Below, piece after piece: positions 38,120 to 43,618 of a stretch of 51,990 bases of DNA. Under the pieces are notes generated by a model. It did no database searches and had not been told where the DNA came from. It worked only from the letters and a program-made list of their open reading frames with translations. The translations under genes and the position numbers were made by a program. Origin of the DNA: Anaerolineae bacterium (GTDB lineage: Bacteria; Chloroflexota; Anaerolineae; Aggregatilineales; J027); NCBI GenBank assembly GCA_021463865.1, contig JAJTXY010000027.1:1-51990 (forward strand). Direction: 5' to 3'. Position 1 is the stretch's first letter, and every line of letters begins with the position of its first letter.

Positions 38120-39097
38120 CTATGCCCCAACCGATATTTTCCCCTCAGCCAATGCCCTCTCAAATCCCTCAATCGTCTGCCGAATGCCTTCTTCTAACGG
38201 CGTATCATAAACATTCGCAAAATGGCGATGTAGTTCTGAGCCATCAAAGTTTTCTGGAAATGGCAGCACGGTATCCGACATCGTGATTTTGACGTTCGGA
38301 CGCAGGCGTTCAATAATTTCAACCACCTGCGCGACAGGGGTCGGCGGCGCATCCAGATTGAAAACATAAGCGCCATTCAAAGGATGGGTTGCCGATTCGA
38401 TAAATTGCAGGGCCGTATCCGATGCCCATTGAAATTGCATCACCCCGCCGAAATTGATATGGAAATTTTGCCCTGCCGCCGCTGCCAGCATTGCTTTGGT
38501 GGGATCGCTGGTCAAGCCTTGATCGCGCCCCAAGCCATAAACGGTATAGGGACGTAATCCGGTGCTGCTGATTTGATGATCCTGCCAATAAATCCGCGCC
38601 GTGCCTTCGTTAGCCTGTTTAAAGACGCCATACAGGGTACGCGGAGAAGGGTGGGCATCATTAGCGACGGGTTGATTATCGGGATAATCTTCGGCTGGCC
38701 CAAACACCGCGATGGAGGAGGCAAAGGCAATATGTTTTACTCCAGTTTGTCGCGCCGCCTCATATACGTTAACCGTACCAACCACATTCACCTGTGCCCC
38801 TTTGATGGGATTGGCTCGCACAAAGGGGACTTGCAGCGCCGCCAAGTGAATGACATGGGTGATCCCATATTGTTGAAATACTGCCAACACTTGGTCAGGG
38901 TAAGCTAAATCACCGCGTACAAAGGAAATGACCTGTTGTTCTTCAGGCGTCATCAATAAATTGAGGCGGTGGCCCTGATCAGCAATATCAAAACTGACCA
39001 CCCGCCGCCCTTGTTTCACCAGATGATAGACTGTCCATGCGCCTATACAGCCCAGCGCCCCAGTCACTAAATATGTTTCTTTCGTTTGGTCTGCCAT
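38120..39097 (-). CDS. NAD-dependent epimerase/dehydratase (extended SDR)
   Basis: Extended short-chain dehydrogenase of 325 residues, acting on an unknown nucleotide sugar or related substrate. It has the NAD motif VTGALGCIGAW (about 11-21), a catalytic pair in TLYGVFKQANEG (Tyr and Lys spaced by three), and ASSIAVFGP near residue 125 with the likely catalytic Ser. RPYTVYGLGRD is a typical substrate-binding block. Start ATG 39097 is preceded by AGGGG about nine bases upstream. A promoter candidate lies 31-59 bases upstream. Its neighbours give no pathway hint. Confidence 0.85.
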   Translation of the reverse strand: MADQTKETYLVTGALGCIGAWTVYHLVKQGRRVVSFDIADQGHRLNLLMTPEEQQVISFVRGDLAYPDQVLAVFQQYGITHVIHLAALQVPFVRANPIKGAQVNVVGTVNVYEAARQTGVKHIAFASSIAVFGPAEDYPDNQPVANDAHPSPRTLYGVFKQANEGTARIYWQDHQISSTGLRPYTVYGLGRDQGLTSDPTKAMLAAAAGQNFHINFGGVMQFQWASDTALQFIESATHPLNGAYVFNLDAPPTPVAQVVEIIERLRPNVKITMSDTVLPFPENFDGSELHRHFANVYDTPLEEGIRQTIEGFERALAEGKISVGA

Positions 39098-39127
39098 AAA
39101 TCACCCCTAAGTAAAATATTGGCTTTG

Positions 39128-39156
39128 ATTGTATAGGGGATGGAGAACTGAGCCAA
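39128..39156 (-). promoter_or_regulatory. Candidate sigma-70 promoter for the epimerase gene
   Basis: On the minus strand, TTGGCT (39151-39156), 17-base spacer, TACAAT (39128-39133); four and five of six consensus bases. The expected start near 39121 leaves about 24 bases to the ATG at 39097. Confidence 0.45.
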
Positions 39157-39200
39157 CATCAGGTACTCTAGCAGGGGCAAATTTTTTAGGGTATGGAACG

Positions 39201-39518
39201 ATGGTTGAACCACAAACGGAAAACACCGAAGTCGAGATTATTTCGCCAGAAGCAGCCGAGGCGATCTTAAAGCCGGAAGTTGAGAAATTGGTAGCAGATG
39301 GTTGGCGCGTTGTGCATGAATCGGCTTTTGCGGCACGGCTGGTCAAAGAACGCGATTTAATAGACCTGCGAGTAGACCTGCTTGGTCAATTGGAGCGCAA
39401 ACAAGGGGTGACTTTGCTCTACGGGCCAGAAATTGGGCGGGCGGTGGCGTGGGTGCTGCTGTTGGTCTCGATTTTAATGGCGATGGCATTAGCCTCGGCG
39501 TTGGGCTTTTTTAAGTAA
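39201..39518 (+). CDS. Small hypothetical protein with C-terminal membrane segment
   Basis: A 105-residue protein I do not recognise. The first 80 residues are soluble and charged (PEAAEAILKPEVEKLVADGW near 18-37), and a membrane segment follows at about 82-102, ending FFK, so it may be tail-anchored with the bulk in the cytosol. ATG 39201 is the first plausible start, with AGGG ten bases upstream. Its 3' end overlaps the convergent methyltransferase gene by eight bases. Confidence 0.6.
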   Translation: MVEPQTENTEVEIISPEAAEAILKPEVEKLVADGWRVVHESAFAARLVKERDLIDLRVDLLGQLERKQGVTLLYGPEIGRAVAWVLLLVSILMAMALASALGFFK

Positions 39519-40233
39519 GACGCTGCAACACACTGTAACAGTTTAAATCCCCACTGCGACCATCGGCCCGATAGGTGGTAATTTCCGTCAATCCGGTGGC
39601 GGCAATTAGGGATTGATGTTCGGTGTCGTCAATGTAATGGCAGTAGCGCAGGGCAGGCTTCTCTTCGATATTTCTATCGCGCTGCCAATCCAAGAGATAA
39701 TCATGGGTTTCAACCTCAAAATCGTCGGGCCATGCCACAATCCGTTCGCGGAAACGGGGCTGCTCATAAAAGCGCCAACTGGTGAACACCAAATAGCCAT
39801 CTTTTTTGACCCGTTCACCCAAGCGCCGCACAAATTCATGCCGATTTTCATAACCGGGGATGTGATGCAGCACCCCAAAGGCCACCACAAGGTCATATTC
39901 ACCTTTATCGGGTGGATTTTCGACAATATCTCGATTTTCCAGCGTGAAGGATAGGCCGCGTTCATCGAATGCTTGTCGTGCAAAATCCAAGAGCGCCGGG
40001 GCGTTATCGAGGCCATGATATGCCATGCCATCACCCAATTGCTCGTATAGAAATAGACCAAAGCGCCCATTGCCACAACCAACATCCAAAACCGAAAGCG
40101 GCGGCTTGAGATAGGGCAGCAATTTCAGCCAACCCTCCCACGCATGGTCACGTGATTGGCTAAACGACTCGGCGGTTTGGGTATAAAAATCTTTATTCAG
40201 TTGATTTAAGCGTCGGATTAGATTAACATCCAT
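39511..40233 (-). CDS. Trm9/ALKBH8-like SAM methyltransferase
   Basis: Class I methyltransferase, 240 residues. SAM motif VLDVGCGNGRFG (48-59) and VVAFGVLHHIPG (about 117-128). The N-terminal LNKDFYTQTAESFSQSR (12-28) and AWEGW match the pattern of Trm9/ALKBH8 wobble-uridine methyltransferases, and the C-terminal LRYCHYIDDTEHQSLIA resembles their RYYH-FxxxELxxL block. Trm9 methylates carboxymethyl-uridine at tRNA position 34, the product of Elp3. The gene diverges from elp3 with 29 bases between the starts, so shared control is likely. Family call is by motif pattern; a general tRNA or other small-molecule methyltransferase is the alternative. No Trm112 partner gene is seen. Confidence 0.7.
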   Translation of the reverse strand: MDVNLIRRLNQLNKDFYTQTAESFSQSRDHAWEGWLKLLPYLKPPLSVLDVGCGNGRFGLFLYEQLGDGMAYHGLDNAPALLDFARQAFDERGLSFTLENRDIVENPPDKGEYDLVVAFGVLHHIPGYENRHEFVRRLGERVKKDGYLVFTSWRFYEQPRFRERIVAWPDDFEVETHDYLLDWQRDRNIEEKPALRYCHYIDDTEHQSLIAATGLTEITTYRADGRSGDLNCYSVLQRLT

Positions 40234-40262
40234 TCAAAGAATTCCAATCGGGTTGAACATGC

Positions 40263-42092
40263 ATGACCTACAAAACCGCCCCTGATCTTGATGAACTTGA
40301 GCTTTACCGCGAATCCCTTTTGGCGATTCTGCGGCAGGTACTTGGCACACCTGAACTTGCCCAAAAGCAGCTTGAGCGCATTCTAAAATCGCATCCCAAA
40401 GATGGCTCTGGCCTGTTCCGCCGCGATGAACTGATTCGTGCCTACCGCCATTTTACCGAGACAGGTGATCTGCCTGCCTTCGATAAAACCATTGTGGAGC
40501 GCCTGCGCCTTAAACCCGTGCGAACCAGTTCGGGGGTGACACCTGTCACCGTTTTGACCAAGCCGTTTCCCTGTCCGGGGACGTGTATTTTTTGCCCCAG
40601 CGATATTCGGATGCCCAAGAGCTATCTTTCGGATGAGCCGGGGGCACAGCGAGCCGAAGCCAACGCTTTTGACCCCTATCTGCAAACCTATCGCCGCCTG
40701 TTGGCCCTCCATAATACCGGACACCCCACCGACAAAATCGAAATGATTATTTTGGGTGGCACATGGTCATTTTATCCCGAAACCTATCAAATCTGGTTTA
40801 TCAAGCGCATTTTTGACGCGCTGCATGATTTTGGCAATGGAGTAGACCACACGGCGGAAGTGGAAAGTCTGCTCTTGGAACATTCCCAACTGCACCCCGC
40901 CCGCAACATCACCCCCATCAACGTGCCGGGGCATGACCAGACCTATAATCAGGTCGTCCAGAATATCTATCATGATGAAATGATGCGTTCGCGCGAACAG
41001 GCCGCTTCGATTGGAGTAGGTTTAGCCGAGCGCACCCTCGTCACCGAATTTGCGACATGGGAAGAATTAGAGTCGGCGCATCGGGAAAACGAAAATGCCG
41101 TATGTCGCTGTGTCGGCTTGGTGATTGAGACCCGCCCCGACCATATCAGCGAAGCAGAAGTGCTGCGGATTCGGCGCTTGGGCTGTACCAAAGTCCAAAT
41201 TGGTTTTCAGAGCCTGAATGATGAAGTGCTGCACCTGAATAAACGCGGGCATGAAGTCGCCGCCACCCGCCATGCCGTGAAGTTGCTGCGCCAAGCCGGA
41301 TTTAAAATCCATGCCCATTGGATGCCGAATTTGTATGGGTCGTCGCCGGAAGCCGATATTGAAGATTATACGCGGATGTTTCATGACCCCGATTTCCGCC
41401 CCGATGAACTCAAGGTTTATCCCTGTTCGCTGATTGAGAGCGCCGAATTGATGGATTACTATCAGCGCGGCGAATGGCGACCCTATACCCATGAGGAACT
41501 ATTAGGGGTGCTGACGGCTTGCTTTCAACTGACCCCTGATTACTGCCGCTTGACCCGGGTTATCCGCGACATCCCCGGCACAGATATTGTGGTCGGCAAC
41601 AAAATGACCAATTTCCGCGAACTGGTGCAGCAGGAATTGACCCAGAATGGCAGCTATACAGGCGATATCCGCAGCCGCGAAATCCGTCATCGTAACATCG
41701 TCCTTGATGCTTTGCACTTGGATGAGGTCTGGTACACCTCCAATTGCAGTGACGAGGTTTTCCTGCAATATATCACTCCCGAACGCCAGATTGCCGGATT
41801 TTTGCGCCTATCTCTGCCTACCGAACCGCCAATTACCCCCGAATTAGAAAACGCCGCCATGATTCGAGAAGTGCACGTTTACGGACAATCCATCGAAATC
41901 GGTGAGGCGTTGGCAGGCAAAAGTCAGCACGTCGGGCTAGGCAAACAGTTGATTGAACGCGCGGTGGAGATTGCACGCGAACGGGGCTATCAACAACTCG
42001 CCGTGATTTCCGCTATCGGTACACGCGAGTATTATCGCAGACGCGGATTTGCCGATGGGCAGCTTTATCAACTGCGTGATTTAAGGGAGTAA
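40263..42092 (+). CDS. elp3: Elongator-like tRNA uridine(34) modification enzyme Elp3
   Basis: Radical SAM/acetyltransferase that adds a carboxymethyl group to tRNA wobble uridine; bacterial Elp3 works without other Elongator subunits. The 609-residue protein has the iron-sulfur motif C104-x3-C108-x2-C111 (CPGTCIFC), the SYLSDEPGAQRA block, MIILGGTWSFYP, and GLVIETRPD at about 285. The C-terminal GNAT domain (about 520-605) has IREVHVYGQ, QHVGLGKQLIERA and ISAIGTREYYRRRGF. Relative to typical Elp3 there is an insertion of roughly 80 residues between the two halves of the barrel (about 200-278). Divergent from the Trm9-like gene; the TPR gene follows directly after its stop. Confidence 0.93.
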   Translation: MTYKTAPDLDELELYRESLLAILRQVLGTPELAQKQLERILKSHPKDGSGLFRRDELIRAYRHFTETGDLPAFDKTIVERLRLKPVRTSSGVTPVTVLTKPFPCPGTCIFCPSDIRMPKSYLSDEPGAQRAEANAFDPYLQTYRRLLALHNTGHPTDKIEMIILGGTWSFYPETYQIWFIKRIFDALHDFGNGVDHTAEVESLLLEHSQLHPARNITPINVPGHDQTYNQVVQNIYHDEMMRSREQAASIGVGLAERTLVTEFATWEELESAHRENENAVCRCVGLVIETRPDHISEAEVLRIRRLGCTKVQIGFQSLNDEVLHLNKRGHEVAATRHAVKLLRQAGFKIHAHWMPNLYGSSPEADIEDYTRMFHDPDFRPDELKVYPCSLIESAELMDYYQRGEWRPYTHEELLGVLTACFQLTPDYCRLTRVIRDIPGTDIVVGNKMTNFRELVQQELTQNGSYTGDIRSREIRHRNIVLDALHLDEVWYTSNCSDEVFLQYITPERQIAGFLRLSLPTEPPITPELENAAMIREVHVYGQSIEIGEALAGKSQHVGLGKQLIERAVEIARERGYQQLAVISAIGTREYYRRRGFADGQLYQLRDLRE

Positions 42093-42098
42093 ATGGAT

Positions 42099-42644
42099 AT
42101 GCTGCGCCGCAAAGTTCCACCGCCGACTGGCCCGCAATTACGCCTATCTACGGGTGCGCCCCTCAGCATTGCAGATCGCTATTTGGAGCGCGGTCTGCAC
42201 CACTATCAACACAAAAAATTTGCCGAGGCGCTGGCGGATTTGGACGAAGCGATTTACAACGCACCTAGTCTCGCCGAACTGTATGTTACACGGGCTGTCA
42301 TTTTATATGAGATGGAACGCGACGATGACGCAACAGAGGATGCCGAATACGCGCTGCGGCTCGATCCCCGCCAATGGATTGGGCACTATGTCTTGGGTCT
42401 GATTGCCATTCGACGCGAGGATTTTCCAGCGGCGGTAGAGGAATTTTCGCAAGCGCAACGTTATGCCCCGACGCGACCCGAAATTTTCTTCACACGGGCG
42501 ATTGCGTTTCACCAACAAGATGAGATGACATTGGCCTATTATGATATGGACAGCGCCCTACAAGTCATGAAAAGTGATCATAAGCTCCGCAAAGAGGCCA
42601 ATAAATTCGTCACACAGGTCAAACCCGCCAAAAAGAAAAAGTAA
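42099..42644 (+). CDS. TPR protein downstream of elp3
   Basis: A 181-residue soluble protein made of about four tetratricopeptide repeats (YLERGLHHYQHKKFAEALADL, PSLAELYVTRAVILYEME, WIGHYVLGLIAIRREDFPAAV and RPEIFFTRAIAFHQQDEM) followed by a lysine-rich tail. TPR proteins are adaptors; the partner is unknown. An ATG directly after the elp3 stop (42093) would be three bases from the GGGAG, so the in-frame ATG at 42099, with nine-base spacing, is preferred. It is almost certainly in the elp3 operon. Confidence 0.8.
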   Translation: MLRRKVPPPTGPQLRLSTGAPLSIADRYLERGLHHYQHKKFAEALADLDEAIYNAPSLAELYVTRAVILYEMERDDDATEDAEYALRLDPRQWIGHYVLGLIAIRREDFPAAVEEFSQAQRYAPTRPEIFFTRAIAFHQQDEMTLAYYDMDSALQVMKSDHKLRKEANKFVTQVKPAKKKK

Positions 42645-42697
42645 TCGTCTATCGGCTGGTTTGCTTTCCAAGTAAAATAACACTTATCTTCGCCGTC

Positions 42698-42714
42698 TTG
42701 ATTATGTAAATCAA
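42698..42714. promoter_or_regulatory. Palindrome upstream of panB
   Basis: TTGATT (42698-42703) and AATCAA (42709-42714) form a 6-base inverted repeat with a five-base centre, 50 bases before the panB ATG. TTGATT could also serve as a -35 with TATTTG 17 bases on, a poor -10. It may be an operator; evidence is weak. Confidence 0.25.
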
Positions 42715-42763
42715 TCTCCATATTTGCTTGTAATTTTTCAGGGCAACCAAAGGATACCCCCCT

Positions 42764-43618
42764 ATGGATAAGGTGACGCTTCAGCAGTTGCAGGCGATGA
42801 AAGAGCGCGGCGAACCCATCAGCATGTTGACCGCCTATGATTACCCCTCTGGTTTGCTGGCTGACCAAAGCGGTGTGGATATGATTTTGGTCGGCGATTC
42901 GCTCGGCATGGTTGTACACGGCTTTGAAAGTACCCTCCCGGTCACAATGGACATGATGGTGCTGCACATCCAAGCGGTGCGGCGCGGCGTTAAACGGGCT
43001 TTTTTGGTCGGCGACATGCCCTTTATGAGCTATCAAGCCAGCCGTGACGAAGCCCTCCGCAATGCAGGTCGCCTGCTCAAAGAAGGCAATGCTGATGCCA
43101 TCAAATTAGAGGGTGGCATCCATATGGCGGAAACCGTGCATGATATGGTGCAAATCGGCATCGCGGTCATGGGGCATATCGGATTGACACCCCAAAGCGT
43201 CAGCGCGTTTGGCGGCTTTAAGGTTCAGGGCAAATCCATCGAAGCAGCCCGTAAACTTATCGAAGATGCCAAAGCAATTGAACAAGCTGGTGCTTTCTCG
43301 ATGGTGATTGAAGGCGTCCCCGCGAAACTGGCGGCATTAATTACCCGTATGGTCAATATCCCCACGATTGGCATCGGAGCAGGCGGCGGCACGGATGGAC
43401 AGGTCTTGGTCATGCACGATATTTTGGGCATGTTTGACCGCTTTACCCCCAAATTTGTCAAGCAGTATGCCAAAATCGGTGAGGCGATTCAAAACGTCTT
43501 CACCACCTTCCATCAAGAAGTTCGGTCAGGAGCCTTTCCCGCTCCCGAACACGAATTTGGGATTTCCGACGCGGTGTTAAACGAAATCTTGACCGAAATC
43601 GGCGACACGGCCCATTAA
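42764..43618 (+). CDS. panB: 3-methyl-2-oxobutanoate hydroxymethyltransferase
   Basis: Makes ketopantoate from alpha-ketoisovalerate and methylene-tetrahydrofolate, the first committed step of pantothenate and CoA synthesis. The 284-residue protein has the family blocks: MLTAYDYPSGLLADQ, MILVGDSLGMVVHG with the metal-binding Asp, LEGG (about 114-117) and VIEGVPAKLA with the catalytic Glu. Length is normal. It is followed 36 bases later by panE; together they convert ketoisovalerate to pantoate. panC and panD are not in the window. Confidence 0.95.
   Translation: MDKVTLQQLQAMKERGEPISMLTAYDYPSGLLADQSGVDMILVGDSLGMVVHGFESTLPVTMDMMVLHIQAVRRGVKRAFLVGDMPFMSYQASRDEALRNAGRLLKEGNADAIKLEGGIHMAETVHDMVQIGIAVMGHIGLTPQSVSAFGGFKVQGKSIEAARKLIEDAKAIEQAGAFSMVIEGVPAKLAALITRMVNIPTIGIGAGGGTDGQVLVMHDILGMFDRFTPKFVKQYAKIGEAIQNVFTTFHQEVRSGAFPAPEHEFGISDAVLNEILTEIGDTAH

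Follow-up and report, generated by a model that had tools for sequence, protein, structure and literature searches.

A divergent Elp3 and Trm9-type methyltransferase gene pair as a probable bacterial wobble-uridine route in Anaerolineae

Our analysis of a 51,990-nucleotide stretch of DNA from an Anaerolineae bacterium (hereafter, the window; contig C20, from a 4.9-Mb genome with a completeness of 97%) identifies two divergent genes that probably encode a bacterial two-enzyme route for modifying the wobble uridine of tRNA, leading from cm5U34 to mcm5U34 in place of MnmE–MnmG; no nucleoside has been measured. In the proposed route, Elp3 would work as it does in archaea, without the rest of Elongator, placing a carboxymethyl group on C5 of U34 to give cm5U34, and the divergently encoded Trm9-type methyltransferase would use SAM to methylate the cm5U34 carboxylate, giving mcm5U34. 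MnmA, whose gene lies in another part of the genome, could thiolate position 2 to yield mcm5s2U34, and within the class the Elp3 and methyltransferase route would replace MnmE–MnmG. The reaction, the order of its steps and the tRNA substrates are inferred; methylation of the carboxylate to mcm5U34 is the simplest reading because a Trm9-type enzyme is encoded beside Elp3 and is found only with Elp3. An mcm5U pathway had been suggested for this locus in the initial annotation, made from sequence alone; our results support the idea overall, but it is still a candidate, and the presence of mcm5U in tRNA remains inferred. The features of the locus are as follows.

39511..40233, minus strand: Trm9-type SAM methyltransferase, the proposed cm5U34 carboxyl methyltransferase (evidence: open reading frame, PDB matches, linkage to Elp3).
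40234..40262, no strand: intergenic stretch of 29 bp between the divergent start codons (evidence: sequence).
40263..42092, plus strand: elp3, radical SAM/acetyltransferase-domain tRNA U34 carboxymethyl enzyme, 609 aa (evidence: TIGR01211, PDB matches).
40572..40595, plus strand: sequence coding for the CxxxCxxC radical-SAM cysteines of Elp3, residues 104, 108 and 111 (evidence: alignment).
40830..41063, plus strand: Elp3 insertion relative to most relatives, residues 190–267 (evidence: alignment lengths).

Both genes appear in the list of open reading frames of the window with ATG starts, the methyltransferase being 240 aa long, and exactly 29 bases separate the two start codons. The initial annotation had described this divergent 29-base arrangement, which holds to the base; its further suggestion of co-regulation through the common intergenic region remains inferred only. 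The same 29-bp spacing is seen between adjacent reading frames at two other loci (L035 and L036), and methyltransferases 84–93% identical to that of the window are encoded at four loci, one from an Anaerolineae bacterium and three from Chloroflexi bacteria. A TPR-repeat protein (42093–42644) begins at the base right after the elp3 stop codon, an order that is the same in L035. Rfam gave no match within 39000–43000, and no tRNA genes were found anywhere in the window.

The plus-strand gene encodes Elp3. Its product scores 471.8 bits against the NCBIfam profile TIGR01211 (curated cut-off 350) and matches ELP3-family chains in the PDB, with a best E-value of 2.3e-98. An alignment of 49 Elp3 rows (one genome counted twice, as L041 and L048) retains the three radical-SAM cysteines in every row and the acetyl-CoA loop QHxGxG in 48, the remaining row being cut off. 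Formation of cm5U34 on tRNA by this protein is inferred; in vitro, this modification is made by the purified enzyme of archaea (PMC7663514; PMC13315578). As a separate observation, the CxCxxC linker cysteines are missing from 11 of the 49 rows, which form a clade of the window’s order together with a WWE3 sequence (L039) and L056. This clade carries a long insertion of 37–84 residues (78 in the window, 78–84 in its order, 59 in L039 and 37 in L056), compared with 5–41 residues elsewhere.

The association of the two genes extends across the class. Our main sample comprised 150 genomes of the class (called Anaerolineae), in which the methyltransferase, with a presence limit of E up to 1e-20, was found in 64 genomes spanning 20 families. 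Elp3 was over its cut-off in 72 genomes, or 74 when two partial copies are counted (the count includes G127 and G144, whose matches are partial or at a contig end, and excludes a 75-bit match in G120). Every one of the 64 methyltransferase genomes has Elp3 (Fisher p 4e-32; our distribution p-values ignore shared ancestry). One more methyltransferase, in G131, fell below the 1e-20 limit yet lies beside elp3, so that 65 of the 74 Elp3 genomes have the enzyme.

The two genes lie within approximately 1.1 kb of each other in 51 of the 64 methyltransferase genomes, from 16 families (50 divergent, one tandem), and the pairing therefore exceeds chance. An unconserved neighbourhood, which the initial annotation had listed as a finding that would refute its proposal, is thus not what we observe. 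In the other 13 genomes, which include all six other sampled members of the window’s order, the two genes are split between contigs or, in G067, separated by 0.76 Mb; this lack of linkage is a point against our preferred reading. No methyltransferase was detected in nine of the 74 Elp3 genomes of the class. These methyltransferase-free genomes (L048–L056) belong to families f12, f23 and f39; judged by eye, elp3 follows a gene with a phosphoglycerate-mutase-type-like start in some members of f12, and a glycosyltransferase-like gene in f23.

A wider sample of 301 genomes of the phylum contains the methyltransferase in 28 genomes and Elp3 in 52, every one of the 28 also having Elp3. The 24 genomes with Elp3 alone comprise 23 from outside the class and one (G009) from inside it; at most nine first-look candidates were scored per genome, which makes these absences soft. 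Because no methyltransferase was detected in nine Elp3 genomes of the class and 23 outside it, Elp3 does not appear to require the methyltransferase. Beyond these samples, a contig of a WWE3 MAG (L039, 4240–6738) carries a divergent elp3/methyltransferase pair whose products are 51% and 33% identical, respectively, to those of the window. Both proteins group with the window’s order in trees (support 100/96 for Elp3 and 96/79 for the methyltransferase), a placement that is tentative because the branches are long; either transfer or misbinning of the contig is possible, and the choice between them is unresolved.

The strongest evidence for the route is the mutual exclusion of Elp3 with MnmE/MnmG, which goes beyond what the initial annotation could draw on. 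MnmE occurs in 48 of the 150 class genomes, and MnmG is over its cut-off in 45, or 47 with two partial copies (below-cut-off pieces in G132 and G139 were added; a 165-bit piece in G051, a genome that has MnmE, was left out). Not a single genome among the 150 has both Elp3 (74 genomes) and MnmE/MnmG (52 genomes; p 5e-22), and MnmA is over its cut-off in 143. The window’s own genome encodes MnmA, the 2-thiolase, over its cut-off at 356.5 bits. In the same genome, we found neither MnmE over cut-off (best match 127.5 bits, profile positions 196–336) nor MnmG over cut-off (only a partial match of 62.9 bits), and gaps in an assembly that is 97% complete are by themselves an improbable, though possible, cause of this double absence. 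As a side observation, Elp3 and MnmE/MnmG are both missing, by the limits applied here, from 24 of the 150 genomes. These 24 include every sampled member of families f6 (six), f11 (three) and f13 (six), and MnmA is present in all 15 of these genomes, one of which (G010) is a single contig.

The minus-strand product is a class I SAM methyltransferase, as identified by domain search, and its closest relative of known structure by sequence is Trm9. Pfam methyltransferase models match all 52 members of our family alignment A1 (which excludes L034, truncated by a contig end, and does not contain L057). Searched as a single sequence, the protein finds Yarrowia lipolytica Trm9 (PDB 5CM2, 5cm2_Z) as its best PDB match, with an E-value of 3.2e-8 against 4.5e-6 for the runner-up, and the 52-row family profile also ranks Trm9 first (63.7 bits; runner-up 53.2). 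The Trm9 alignment covers profile positions 25–223 and so takes in, beyond the common core, a D-x4-W...RY block that is conserved, whereas the other 59 rows compared (60 of 160 matched) all end by position 171. For four other methyltransferases of the window’s own genome, no alignment to the family profile extends beyond position 164.

A reverse search with the Trm9 fragment gave matches in 80 of the 150 class genomes. Of the 64 genomes with the methyltransferase family, 45 were matched, a family member being the best match in 39 and a different methyltransferase scoring better in six, and 19 had no match; the six and the 19 count against the preferred reading. The elp3-linked family makes up 40 of the 122 rows of this search, and 25 of the 26 rows that reach the last block of Trm9 (query position 160 or later). 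A plasmid search with the methyltransferase returned just two weak matches, covering approximately half of the protein.

These searches bear on a rival explanation, in which the protein belongs to the general methyltransferases of small molecules or proteins (for example those of the quinone type, UbiG-like) and sits beside elp3 by chance. In its favour, UbiG (TIGR01983) is the top NCBIfam label, the CpaM and UbiG models match 50 and 46 of the 52 family members, respectively, and the fold is generic. Against it, all NCBIfam labels fall below cut-off, and we rejected the UbiG label, which scores 38.5 bits where the cut-off is 102.95 and covers residues 7–151, the core, only. Furthermore, the enzyme is confined to Elp3 genomes (64 of 64, in 20 families) and is adjacent to elp3 in 51, which would be unexpected for an unrelated enzyme. 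We consider this rival very unlikely. The initial annotation had pointed to a likeness of the N- and C-terminal blocks to Trm9/ALKBH8, and had stated that a best match to a non-tRNA methyltransferase such as UbiG would refute it; the likeness is supported, with Trm9 first by both sequence and profile and the match running past the core, and the refuting outcome did not arise, given the sub-threshold UbiG label and the first place of Trm9 among solved structures.

The residues of the family show further similarity to Trm9. Eighteen positions are invariant in the family, of which 14 fall inside the Trm9 alignment and 12 are identical in Yarrowia Trm9; L62 and P126 are invariant in the family and differ in Trm9. 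The invariant D50, G52, C53 and G54 belong to the SAM-binding core, and R28, R131, W153, D178, W183 and R196 are in common with Trm9 outside the common core. In yeast Trm9, the mutants R29A, H115A, R241A, Y243A and N271A have reduced tRNA affinity and kcat (PMC5372719). With the yeast numbering transferred by us onto the Yarrowia chain, R28 and R196 are present in 52 of 52 rows and align to arginines of Yarrowia Trm9 (yeast R29 and R241), and an HH pair (the yeast H115 region; 48 and 52 of 52 rows) aligns to HH of Yarrowia Trm9. The column of yeast Y243 is never Y (C in 32 rows, V in 12, A in seven and T in one), a point against our reading, and the preceding column is Y in 51 of 52 rows. Yeast N271 falls outside the alignment; N231, near the C terminus, is N in 38 of 52 rows.

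The predicted structure is confident (AlphaFold2; mean pLDDT 95.2, pTM 0.92), and its fold does not single out Trm9, which also counts against the preferred reading. Foldseek places Trm9 at rank 5 of 50 rows, although none of the others exceeds its target-normalised TM-score (0.80) or its identity (21%). In VIA-align, Trm9 is absent from 50 rows that are nearly tied at Z-scores of 21.1 to 19.5, an absence that shows nothing. The fold is generic and its comparison discriminates poorly; the Trm9 assignment rests on sequence.

A second rival keeps the methyltransferase on tRNA after Elp3 but gives it another product, the methyl group going to a further-processed side chain, to the ribose or elsewhere in the anticodon loop, with an end product other than mcm5U34. 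In favour of this rival, the enzyme is strongly tied to Elp3 in function but the methylation site is inferred, the Trm9 active-site residues are not all retained (the Y243 column), and METTL6, a tRNA methyltransferase of a different site, is among the top VIA-align folds. Against this rival, the R28, R131, W153, D178, W183 and R196 held in common are residues of the cm5U enzyme, and Trm9 is the closest sequence relative. We regard another product as unlikely.

The preferred reading, methylation of cm5U34 to mcm5U34, leaves the question of Trm112, the partner of Trm9 in eukaryotes. A six-frame pattern search found no Trm112-like zinc knuckle in the window (a crude search, its pattern based on review text), in line with the remark of the initial annotation that no Trm112 was seen here. 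The window’s own genome contains one match to the Pfam Trm112p model (E 4.5e-4), and 128 of the 150 class genomes have at least one. Trm112p matches are not associated with the methyltransferase, occurring in 55 of 64 genomes with it and 73 of 86 without (p 1.0, ancestry ignored). Nine methyltransferase genomes have no Trm112p match, and seven of these are at least 97% complete; two of the genomes counted as lacking a match, G130 and G138, were deduced. The Trm112p model has 40 positions and can miss copies, which makes this evidence weak.

Because Trm112p shows no association, the methyltransferase may act alone; this independence from Trm112 is an inference, and the small model makes it uncertain. 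The initial annotation had invoked the eukaryotic scheme of Elp3 followed by Trm9 with Trm112, and the Trm112 part of it is not borne out in the 150 genomes. It is less likely, though conceivable, as a variant of our explanation, that mcm5U34 is made only when the enzyme is bound to a Trm112-like zinc-knuckle protein of the bacterium. Yeast Trm9 by itself is inactive (PMC6382703), and the Trm112p match in the window’s genome, like those across the class, would fit such a partner. The lack of association speaks against this variant, weakly for the reason above, as do the seven methyltransferase genomes of high completeness without a match.

A bolder reading, towards which we lean only slightly, is that much of one bacterial class uses a stand-alone Elp3 and Trm9-type route instead of MnmE–MnmG, making mcm5(s2)U34 without Elongator accessory subunits or Trm112, and that the pair has also reached the candidate phylum WWE3. 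If true, mcm5U would be known from bacteria for the first time, made by a minimal version of the eukaryotic pathway. A mark thought to be eukaryotic may also be made by some bacteria, where the usual bacterial route is missing. Bacterial Elp3, over cut-off in 72 of 150 genomes, usually accompanied by a Trm9-type enzyme and in no case by MnmE/MnmG, would gain a concrete, testable end product, and the two-protein system offers a way to examine the need for Trm112.

The pair is probably a new bacterial variant of a known eukaryotic-type pathway, although no product has been measured. We call it new because reviews deny or narrow the bacterial case and because the open-licence PMC literature searched yielded no account of Trm9 in bacteria, of Elp3 in the class or of their pairing. 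Reviews of 2017 and 2019 state that methyltransferases of this type are absent from bacteria or that mcm5U is found only in eukaryotes, the 2019 review describing mcm5U of the Trm9 type as confined to eukaryotes (PMC6382703). According to a review of 2020, Elp3 in bacteria is limited to a single clade, Dehalococcoides, and direct evidence for its product is missing because these organisms are hard to cultivate (PMC7663514), though a 2026 paper reports Elp3 in ‘numerous bacteria’ (PMC13315578).

Compared with MnmE–MnmG (with MnmC) of most bacteria, the proposed route has the same target, C5 of U34, but different enzymes and products, and the two never occur together in the 150 sampled genomes. 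The Elp3 of Dehalococcoides mccartyi, which has a solved structure, is also bacterial and comes from what we take to be the same phylum as the window’s organism; in the 301-genome phylum sample, no partner methyltransferase was detected in the 23 Elp3 genomes outside the class, a soft absence. The archaeal Elp3 and Trm9 homologues (Sulfolobus and Haloferax) likewise involve a stand-alone Elp3, whereas the present pair is bacterial; clustering of elp3 and trm9 in S. solfataricus was noted in 2008, and the archaeal product is also unproven (PMC2584109). In eukaryotes, Elongator (Elp3) followed by Trm9–Trm112 or ALKBH8–TRMT112 makes mcm5U34 with the same two enzyme types. The bacterial pair differs in having no Trm112 association and in being encoded by divergent neighbours; it has 12 of 14 family-invariant aligned positions in common with Yarrowia Trm9, and in both systems 2-thiolation is possible as a third step, by MnmA in bacteria and by Ncs6/Urm1 in eukaryotes.
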